A stretch of 40,103 nucleotides of DNA, from assembly GCA_003136415.1 (NCBI GenBank), contig PLEI01000081.1, positions 1 through 40,103 on the forward strand, given 5' to 3'. Position numbers and translations under genes: made by a program. The stretch's first letter is position 1, and each line of letters opens with the position of its first letter. Positions 20,464 through 22,799 of the stretch are shown piece by piece. The notes beneath the pieces are model-generated. The model was not told where the DNA came from and searched no databases. It saw only the letters and a program-made list of their open reading frames with translations. This stretch comes from Acidimicrobiaceae bacterium. Its GTDB lineage: Bacteria; Actinomycetota; Acidimicrobiia; Acidimicrobiales; RAAP-2.

Positions 20464-21540
20464 ATGCTGCGACTAATGGTGCGACGCTCGAGGGACGTCG
20501 ACTACTTGAGCGACGACTCGGCTCTCGAGTTGGAGGGAATCCGCGAGGGACCGGCGCAATGGTGGTTGCGGGGCGCGGGCGACGTCACTGATGCGGCGCA
20601 CGTGGCGCGGGTATTGACAACGAGCGAGCGATCCGCGGTGGTGGGTTATGACCTCATCGTGGCTGCACCCCGGCCGCTCTCGGTGCTCGTGGCGCTCGAC
20701 CCCGCGCACGCGCCAGCCGTCGTCGGCGCGCATCGTCGGGCCGTGGCCGAGGCGCTCGAGTATCTCGAACAACGCGCACTAGTGGTGCGCGACCGGCGCG
20801 GGGGAGACGATATCGAGACCCCGGCCCAGTGGTCGCACGTGGTCGCCTTCACCCACGGAGTGAATCGACACGGCGAACCCCACCTGCACGACCACGTCCT
20901 GGTGGGAGCGAGACCCGCCGGCGCGACGAACGTCCTCGACTCGCGCGCACTCTTTGCCCACGCCGCAGCCGCCGACGCGCTCTATCGCTCGTCGATGCGC
21001 GCCGAAGTGGCGCGAACCACGCCGTTTTCACCCTGGCGCTCCTTTGAAGGGGTCGAGCACGTGGCCGGACTCGACGAGGGCTATCGCGTTCTCTGGGGTG
21101 GCCACCACCTTGAGCGAGGTGTCAAACGTCACTGGACGCGAGAGGGGATCCGCGACGCGTGGGGTAGCGACCTGTCAAGGTTTGAGCCGCACGGATCTCG
21201 GCTCGTTCCCGAGCGCGAACGCGGCCGACTCGACGAACACGCATTCCAGGCGGCGCTCGAAGGTCGCCACGGCGTGGCGCGGCGTCACATTGTGGAGGCG
21301 TGGGCCAATGCCGCGACCTTCGGGCGCGATGCGAGAAGCATCACGACCAGCGTGGATGATCTCTACCCGGCGCTGCGCGGATCCCGGGGGGTGCGTGAGA
21401 CAACGCTGAGTCTCCGTGACGCGCGCATGATCGCCGAGACCAGAGAACGCGGACCGCGGCCCCTTGACGCGAGAGAAATCGACGAGTGGCGTCAGCGATC
21501 TCGGGTGCGTTCACGAGAGGGAGTCGTTCGTTCGAGGTAG
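20464..21540 (+). CDS. TrwC/MobF-type conjugative relaxase domain protein, no helicase domain
   Basis: VVGYDLIVAAPRPLSVLVALDP...AVAEALEYLEQRALVVRDRRGG...HVVAFTHGVNRHGEPHLHDHVLVGA (three-His motif)...ALYRSSMRAEVARTTPF; SD GAGGAGG 5 nt before ATG; only 358 aa. Confidence 0.85.
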   Translation: MLRLMVRRSRDVDYLSDDSALELEGIREGPAQWWLRGAGDVTDAAHVARVLTTSERSAVVGYDLIVAAPRPLSVLVALDPAHAPAVVGAHRRAVAEALEYLEQRALVVRDRRGGDDIETPAQWSHVVAFTHGVNRHGEPHLHDHVLVGARPAGATNVLDSRALFAHAAAADALYRSSMRAEVARTTPFSPWRSFEGVEHVAGLDEGYRVLWGGHHLERGVKRHWTREGIRDAWGSDLSRFEPHGSRLVPERERGRLDEHAFQAALEGRHGVARRHIVEAWANAATFGRDARSITTSVDDLYPALRGSRGVRETTLSLRDARMIAETRERGPRPLDAREIDEWRQRSRVRSREGVVRSR

Positions 21541-22799
21541 CGACGAAATCGTGGATCGGCGTAAGAGGGGGTGAGTTCGATCCACCGGAGATCTTTTTTC
21601 TCGGTGAGCCCGAGGGCATAACCAGCTCGCCCGCGCGCGACGTCGCTGAGCGTCGCGTTGTCGCGCTCGACCCAGGATCGTGAATACCCTTCGCTTCGTC
21701 CTCGCCGCGAGTGTTGCACGTTGGGCGACTCGACGAGCGACCGACCGGCTAGTTGTTGGACCATCTCCAACGTGGTGCGATCGGCAATGCCGGGCAAGAT
21801 CACCGTGGTGGGGAAGAGCGAGAGGAAGCCGTCGGCGTTGTTGCCCCACCGACTCCTGGCTTGACTCAAGTCTTGTAAACACGCGAGCGTGACGACGCCC
21901 TGCCCTCCTCCTTCGGAGACGACGCTGGCGAGGCGCGGCAGTGGTGCCACGTTGGCGAGTTCATCCAACGCCAACAACAGTCGCGCGCCTTCATGATGGC
22001 GGTCGTAGGTGGCGTGAACTACCTCTTCAATCATCCCGACCACGAGCGGTACGGTGACCGCTTGGTAGCGGCTGGGCGAGACGATGTGGAGCTGATGCGG
22101 ACCGCTCAAAAACTCGTTGACGTCGAGGGGGGATTCGCGCGCCGACGCTCGTGCGGCGTCGGTGCGCATCCCGGCGAAGAGTCCCGATGCGGTCGACCAA
22201 ATCCCTGATCGCTCCCGCTCTTCGGTTGCCAGGACGCCGCCCAGCAGCGTCACCGAGGCGTGGGCGTCGCCGTAGCGGGCCGTGAGTTCTTGGACGACGT
22301 CCTCGGCGTTGCGAGCGTCGACGCGAGAGGCCAATTGCCCCAAGGATTCTCCCCTCAGAGCGGCACCGTGCAACAGGGGCGCAATCAATGCGCCGGCGCG
22401 TTCGTTCCAGTGTGATTCGCCCTCGTCGAGGTGGCGTCGTCGACTCACGTCAACGAGGCTGCGCGCCGCGAGAACTGCACCGTCCCACGTGGTGGCTTGT
22501 CGAATGGGTGAGTAGCCCACGCGTCGCGCGCCCGGCGGTGTCGAAACGGTGCCCGAGGGATCGAAGAGCAACGTCACACCATCGTGTCGCGCGCCAGCCA
22601 TCGCGCGCACGACGTCATCTTTGGTCGACGTGATGATTGATGATCGCGACGTCATCAACAGGTTCGGAATGATGAGTGAAGATGTTTTTCCACTGCGGCT
22701 CGGACCCAACACCAACGTCGAACGTTGCGCGCCACTCGACACATCGTGTTGTTGTGCGCGTCCGAGATAGATACCGTGATCGAGTGTCACGATGAACAA
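21492..22799 (-). CDS. VirD4/TraG/TraD-like coupling-protein ATPase (TM-less N-terminus)
   Basis: Walker A LVLGPSRSGKTSSLIIPNLL, Walker B RLLLALDELANVAPLPRLASVVSEGGGQGVVTLACLQDLSQARSRWG; no predicted TM segment before Walker A. Start codon uncertain (TTG 22799 or in-frame GTG about 22790). Confidence 0.85.
   Translation of the reverse strand: MFIVTLDHGIYLGRAQQHDVSSGAQRSTLVLGPSRSGKTSSLIIPNLLMTSRSSIITSTKDDVVRAMAGARHDGVTLLFDPSGTVSTPPGARRVGYSPIRQATTWDGAVLAARSLVDVSRRRHLDEGESHWNERAGALIAPLLHGAALRGESLGQLASRVDARNAEDVVQELTARYGDAHASVTLLGGVLATEERERSGIWSTASGLFAGMRTDAARASARESPLDVNEFLSGPHQLHIVSPSRYQAVTVPLVVGMIEEVVHATYDRHHEGARLLLALDELANVAPLPRLASVVSEGGGQGVVTLACLQDLSQARSRWGNNADGFLSLFPTTVILPGIADRTTLEMVQQLAGRSLVESPNVQHSRRGRSEGYSRSWVERDNATLSDVARGRAGYALGLTEKKDLRWIELTPSYADPRFRRYLERTTPSRERTRDR

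Follow-up and report, generated by a model that had tools for sequence, protein, structure and literature searches.

What are a relaxase and a coupling ATPase doing among the housekeeping genes of a bacterial chromosome? Bacterial conjugation machines nearly always belong to plasmids or to integrative conjugative elements (ICEs). The window analysed here, i.e., the whole of a 40,103-bp contig (C97) from a 2.64-Mb genome (G000) in 116 contigs, contains such a pair. A sequence-only reading of the window had described the pair as lacking any conjugation machinery, and had left two options: a domesticated remnant, or a dedicated system for processing single-stranded DNA (ssDNA). The features of the pair's locus (locus A), and of a second locus elsewhere in the same genome (locus B), are listed in Table 1.

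Table 1. Features of locus A and its surroundings (C97) and of locus B (C51).
Feature	Contig	Position	Strand	Size	Remarks
PafBC-like tandem WYL regulator	C97	18485..20434	+	649 aa	two WYL stretches
MobF/TrwC-type relaxase domain protein	C97	20464..21540	+	358 aa	PF08751, E 8e-26
Soluble VirD4/TraG-like coupling ATPase (T4CP1)	C97	21492..22799	-	435 aa	PF02534, PF12696, PF10412
Structured leader RNA	C97	22927-23078	+	152 nt	covariation
Lysine/alanine-rich HC2/histone H1-like protein	C97	23080-23403	+		divergent from T4CP1
CofC-like gene	C97	23474..24028	-		PF01983; syntenic marker
Pilin-like protein	C51				two-TM, DUF6112, VirB2-like
VirB6	C51				multi-TM, TrbL_4/SCO6881-like
VirB4 N-terminal half	C51				separate SCO6880-like protein
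VirB4 ATPase half	C51				AAA_10
Second VirD4-like ATPase (T4CP2)	C51				PF02534

The relaxase, the coupling ATPase and their neighbours

Judged by its sequence and its modelled structure, the first protein is a MobF/TrwC relaxase domain with an intact active site, predicted to nick at an oriT. TrwC is its sole Pfam match, and a RecD-like C-terminal helicase was found neither in this protein nor in most of its order-level orthologs (one is present in L271 and, in part, in L225). The metal-site three-histidine motif is FTHGVNRHGEPHLHDHV (H131, H142 and H144), and alignment adds a catalytic Tyr14 and Asp63. Thus, the earlier description of a relaxase of this type, with three histidines and without its helicase, was correct. 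In ortholog alignments the columns Y14, D63, H131, R135, H142 and H144 are invariant or nearly so: Y14 is present in 34 of the 35 rows of one alignment and invariant in two further alignments, and the three histidines, which constitute the metal site of the TrwC/HUH fold, are invariant. Structure prediction of the active site had been proposed, and the AlphaFold model (pLDDT 85.8) does resemble the TrwC–oriT complex 1qx0 (Foldseek E 1.8e-9); phmmer matched both TrwC and TraI structures. Against the NCBIfam MobF equivalog the protein scores 82 bits, below the cut-off of 100, and the ortholog L183 scores 199 bits. The relaxases of the window's genus are among the shortest in the family.

The T4CP1 gene is convergent with the relaxase gene, and their 3′ ends share 49 bp (21492-21540). 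Its product matches PF02534 (E 1.5e-18) and TraG-D_C (E 1.2e-16), with a Walker A motif, GPSRSGKT, at residues 32-39; the Walker A, Walker B and TraG motifs show little or no variation in the alignments. The AlphaFold model (pLDDT 86.1) is similar to VirD4-type Cag-beta (8dol, Foldseek E 1.9e-16) and to TrwB (1e9s, E 1.7e-14). T4CP1 therefore has the RecA-like motor and the VirD4/TraG signature of a VirD4-type protein, and lacks the N-terminal membrane anchor: no hydrophobic or transmembrane segment was found at the N-terminus of the window's protein or of the aligned orthologs, in agreement with the sequence-only reading, which had placed the Walker A motif about 30 residues in. The pair shares with TrwC and TrwB of plasmid R388 the relaxase fold with its HUH motif and the coupling-protein fold, but differs in having no RecD-like helicase, no N-terminal anchor on the coupling protein, and a chromosomal core site. 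In six genomes (G124, G127, G128, G130, G138 and G141) the T4CP1 matches read through one in-frame TAG.

Upstream, the PafBC-like gene ends 29 bp before the relaxase gene and is co-directional with it. It is present as a single copy in the genome and has the tandem PafB/PafC WYL architecture (divided between two genes in some genera); its best solved structural match is PafBC itself (6sj9, E 2.8e-13). Almost all loci of the family have this gene next to the relaxase gene, an arrangement also seen in several other families. In Mycobacterium, PafBC controls the response to DNA damage (PMC5656591), which suggests similar control here: from adjacency and by analogy, expression at this locus may be tied to DNA damage. 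A search for the published RecA-NDp (PafBC) motif gave nothing above chance in the window or in locus B, and no pafA or proteasome genes were found among the neighbours scanned.

On the other side, the CofC-like gene follows T4CP1 in most loci of the family, but is regarded as a marker of the locus and not as a component of the machine. All scanned flanking genes of the window are housekeeping genes, as had been claimed: those for SecA, RF-2, DXS, MsrB, TldD/PmbA, MoaC, an FmdB-like protein, CofC and an oligopeptide ABC transporter.

Between the T4CP1 gene and the divergent HC2-like gene, directly upstream of the latter, is a structured RNA. In its alignment, 11 of the 45 base pairs have changed on both sides and 96.5% of cells are paired (0 of 500 shuffles). 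Read on the HC2 strand, the pairing includes G-U in 64 cells as against A-C in 4; the presence of G-U and the scarcity of A-C pairs place the RNA on the + strand. No Rfam match above thresholds was obtained for the 152-nt element. Within the window's genus its model matched 93 genomes, with a single copy in nearly all of them, and there was no match in the other genera of the family. The leader looks like a new RNA motif. The conserved 270-bp intergenic region upstream of T4CP1 is better read as this leader RNA than as an oriT, because its pairing obeys RNA rules on the strand of the HC2-like gene, though an oriT may lie there as well. A lysine-rich coding sequence occupies the HC2-like position in most loci of the genus.

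A minimal type IV secretion system at a second locus

Searching the window's own genome with T4CP1 revealed two further coupling-ATPase genes, on C51 and C84. The gene on C51 (T4CP2) belongs to a compact, operon-like cluster, locus B, together with genes for a VirB2-like protein, VirB6 and a two-part VirB4. Thus, the statement that conjugation machinery is lacking is correct within the 40-kb window but not genome-wide, where there is a minimal type IV secretion system (T4SS) on C51 and a mobile one on C84/C107. The idea of a pair without machinery does not hold for the genome, since the VirB2/VirB6/VirB4/VirD4 genes form a second core locus which co-occurs with the pair.

Locus B contains four components of a minimal conjugative T4SS of monoderm type: VirB4, a VirB6-like protein, a VirB2-like pilin and a coupling protein. 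Its proteins are distant members of the families found in actinobacterial SCO6880/SCO6881/DUF6112 T4SS elements, from which the locus differs in that its SCO6880 and SCO6881 matches are below the NCBIfam cut-offs, its housekeeping context is fixed, and two genes encode VirB4 in the window's genome (the halves are fused in some relatives). That context comprises serS, a response regulator and a histidine kinase on one side and ppgK on the other. Of 40 loci from a range of genera, most have kept it, and in G185 locus B adjoins the same regulator–kinase pair.

Separate from locus B, contigs C107 (L065) and C84 (L066) of the window's genome hold fragments of a conventional mobile T4SS: a TraG with a transmembrane anchor, VirB4, SCO6880/SCO6881-like proteins and a TrwC fragment, beside a 2368-aa RHS-repeat protein.

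A role in anti-phage defence was considered and rejected: the PADLOC scan yielded nothing for the relaxase, and otherwise only ATPase (mad8) matches for the T4SS ATPases and general WYL matches.

Distribution, selection and inheritance

In 37 genomes locus A has one order, i.e., the PafBC-like WYL gene, the relaxase gene, the convergent T4CP1 gene and then, mostly, the CofC-like gene; the exceptions are contig ends and a few loci where the relaxase was missed by ORF picking and was placed there by relaxase search. The same order recurs many times in a second record set (GTDB genomes, partly the same assemblies). The relaxase was found in 164 of 172 genomes of the family (100 of the 101 good ones), in all 21 genera, and T4CP1 in 170 of 172 (again 100 of 101 good ones), so that the pair is present in every genus; as relaxase matches outside the window's genus are partly weak, synteny was relied on there. 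The pair is also kept in reduced genomes of 1.0-1.7 Mb.

The ratio omega (Nei–Gojobori, closest pairs) is about 0.08-0.18 for the relaxase and about 0.04-0.14 for T4CP1 in nearly all pairs, the exception being a T4CP1 value of 0.34 between G102 and G083, possibly due to contamination. Pairwise distances of the transfer genes rise and fall with the distances of housekeeping genes (r mostly 0.7-0.97): the correlation of the relaxase, T4CP1, VirB4, VirB6 and T4CP2 with PafBC, SerS, the histidine kinase and PPGK is about that among the latter. In the coupling-protein tree, T4CP1 and T4CP2 are two fully supported clades; f1, f3 and f16 are grouped as in the taxonomy, with families and genera as expected. 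From these sequence comparisons, the pair and locus B are judged to be vertically inherited.

That the pair is the decaying remnant of an old ICE is extremely improbable. The helicase domain is indeed missing, and the relaxases of the genus are short, but omega indicates purifying selection, the catalytic residues are kept and the pair persists in the reduced genomes. The synteny and dN/dS checks that had been proposed thus came out in favour of a maintained pair, found family-wide in fixed core synteny, and neither strain-specific nor in a variable island; on the selection, distribution and synteny data, a decaying relic or strain-specific island was rejected. Of the two options first offered, the dedicated ssDNA-processing system is supported; the domesticated remnant, if that means a decaying relic, finds no support.

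It is also most improbable that the pair serves in trans to mobilise plasmids or genomic elements, or that it is an integrated mobile element in its own right. The conventional T4SS with its anchored TraG on C84/C107 of the same genome would fit such a role, as would a tandem operon of relaxase (with helicase) and T4CP1-type ATPase in Acidiferrimicrobium and a metagenome-assembled genome (MAG), two copies of which are nearly identical. On the other hand, the chromosomal context of the pair is fixed in 21 genera, mostly in single copy, and the trees match the taxonomy. The variable presence and differing sites by which ICEs and AICEs are recognised were not found; the pair is near-universal, in the same gene context throughout the family.

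The tandem operon (L267, L271, L275 and L291, in Acidiferrimicrobium and MAGs) consists of genes for a relaxase of 964-1143 aa and a soluble T4CP1-type ATPase; a RecD-like helicase is present in L271, the sole one scanned. This operon is nearly identical in two of its genomes and is probably mobile, and it may be the mobile form from which the system came or a form to which it returned.

The VirB4 of locus B was found in 158 of the 172 family genomes (93 of the 101 good ones). Genomes without VirB4 were considered as proof that the pair is independent of locus B and rejected as such for G125, G075, G012, G130, G014 and G035, where contig ends explain the absence. In G029, VirB6, VirB4 and T4CP2 have genuinely been lost from locus B and locus A is intact; G044 has probably undergone the same loss of VirB4 and T4CP2, with relaxase and T4CP1 retained. 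These two genomes argue against a strict link between loci A and B.

Beyond the family, T4CP1 orthologs occur in f3, f5, f13, f16 and f22-f25, and the order-level search found none in f2, f4, f6, f7, f8 and others. Among genomes from other families of the order, all 15 with T4CP1 have the relaxase and all 15 have VirB4; of 17 genomes of the order without T4CP1, three have the relaxase and two have VirB4 (Fisher 1.5e-6 for relaxase and 2.4e-7 for VirB4, values which ignore shared ancestry). Outside the order, T4CP1 profile scores fall from at least 396 bits to 324 bits or less, where ordinary actinobacterial coupling proteins score. The relaxase gene is beside PafBC and/or CofC in f3, f5, f13, f23, f24 and f25, even where T4CP1 has relocated. 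In most families, f1 among them, there is no linkage between loci A and B. In one genome of f16 (G438), however, VirB2-VirB6-VirB4N-VirB4-VirD4 is the immediate, divergently oriented neighbour of the relaxase gene, and the relaxase gene of G352 is beside VirB6-VirB4N with VirB4 nearby.

Could the relaxase and T4CP1 act inside the cell, in ssDNA repair, replication or the control of foreign DNA, with the T4SS of locus B a separate matter? This is unlikely, despite several observations that would suit it: T4CP1 is soluble in all orthologs examined, G029 and probably G044 retain the pair without VirB4 and T4CP2, the two loci are unlinked in f1, and the adjoining regulator resembles one for DNA damage. 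The presence or absence together of relaxase, T4CP1 and VirB4 across the order argues against it, as do the position of the relaxase gene beside the T4SS operon in f16 and the fact that both folds are those of conjugation proteins.

In another family of the class, with genomes of 1.6-1.9 Mb (L191 and L192, in G180 and G247), there is a VirB2-VirB6-VirB4-VirD4 cluster resembling locus B, with a single VirD4 match in three species of that family; possibly, it is a second chromosomal T4SS lineage.

A proposed split system for ssDNA transfer and its possible relatives

The best explanation is a system whose genes are divided between two or more core loci. Loci A and B are likely to form one functional system. 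The pair itself is probably the DNA-processing half of a vertically inherited, chromosomal, conjugation-type system for ssDNA transfer, which is core to the family and is also present in several other families: the genes are conserved, their synteny is fixed, relaxase and T4CP1 are under purifying selection, the catalytic residues are intact, VirB4 co-occurs with the pair, and relaxase and T4SS genes are linked in f16. On balance, the output of the system is taken to be export of chromosomal ssDNA.

By analogy with conjugation, the relaxase would cut the chromosome of its own cell at a cognate site via Tyr14, using HUH chemistry, and would stay covalently bound to the 5′ end of the DNA. T4CP1 would then take the relaxase–DNA complex and hand it over to the membrane machine of locus B; since T4CP1 is unanchored and there is a second coupling protein, this hand-over is assumed. 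Host helicases could replace the absent helicase domain, and T4CP2 could supply the anchor that T4CP1 lacks. ssDNA from the cell's own genome would thereby be passed out, most likely into a neighbouring cell for recombination.

An alternative cargo would be protein, i.e., effectors or toxins exported into neighbours, with the relaxase as a passenger or regulatory leftover. The lineage-wide, chromosomal, MPF-FATA-like T4SSs of Patescibacteria mostly lack a relaxase and are thought to do other jobs (PMC12102498), which is in line with this alternative; even so, it is very unlikely, as a relaxase with a full active site is present in almost every genome, under purifying selection. The ssDNA-transfer system proposed here is like those of Patescibacteria in being lineage-wide, chromosomal and of monoderm type, with VirB4 and VirB2-like pilins, but differs in its near-universal relaxase, which has an intact active site and co-occurs with VirB4.

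The closest analogue is the archaeal Ced system, a chromosomal, "domesticated" conjugation machine of Crenarchaeota that moves cellular DNA (PMC9905601) and is reported to be induced by DNA damage (PMC11868833). Ced and Ted likewise have a conjugation-derived VirB2/VirB6/VirB4-like machine encoded in the chromosome. In contrast, Ced imports DNA, whereas the system proposed here, in a bacterial host, has kept a MobF relaxase and two VirD4-type ATPases, which points to export; the locus B VirB4 gave a weak match to the CedD profile (E 5.6e-4). Only tentatively, and with considerable doubt, can the system be seen as a bacterial counterpart of Ced, in which a lineage-wide, vertically inherited machine under PafBC control would pass chromosomal ssDNA, with the relaxase attached, out to sister cells, where it would serve repair by recombination; this would be a dedicated form of cellular "sex" rather than the vehicle of a parasite.

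A further comparison is with the gonococcal genetic island (GGI) of Neisseria, which is reported to export chromosomal ssDNA with a relaxase and to be present as an island in some strains only (PMC4207684, PMC10272882, PMC8716806). Both are chromosomal T4SSs with a relaxase, that of the GGI being TraI (PMC4207684). The GGI is a horizontally acquired island, whereas here a split core set, with a minimal channel of monoderm type, is found in a family and parts of its order. In the open-access literature searched, no description was found for Acidimicrobiia of a conjugation system that has a relaxase and belongs to the core genome.

If genes for a relaxase, a pair of coupling ATPases and a minimal T4SS belong to the core of a family and of parts of its order, and are kept even in genomes of 1.0-1.7 Mb, then the host itself would benefit from moving DNA. 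The hosts are a large group of actinobacteria (soil, freshwater and acidophilic forms), for which the data suggest a built-in means of passing DNA from cell to cell. The old question of whether bacteria, like Crenarchaeota with Ced, evolve a conjugation of their own as a means of recombination thus becomes testable, and experiments are possible in cultured members that have the coupling ATPase and relaxase (Ferrithrix thermotolerans and Acidithrix ferrooxidans).

In Sulfolobales, the Ced system depends on type IV pili to import DNA (PMC12102498). Type IV pilus-like genes (T2SSE/MshEN, T2SSF and an N-methyl pilin) are situated a few genes from PafBC, relaxase and T4CP1 in family f5 and in genera of the window's family other than its own (L083, L084, L086-L091, L098, L227 and others).
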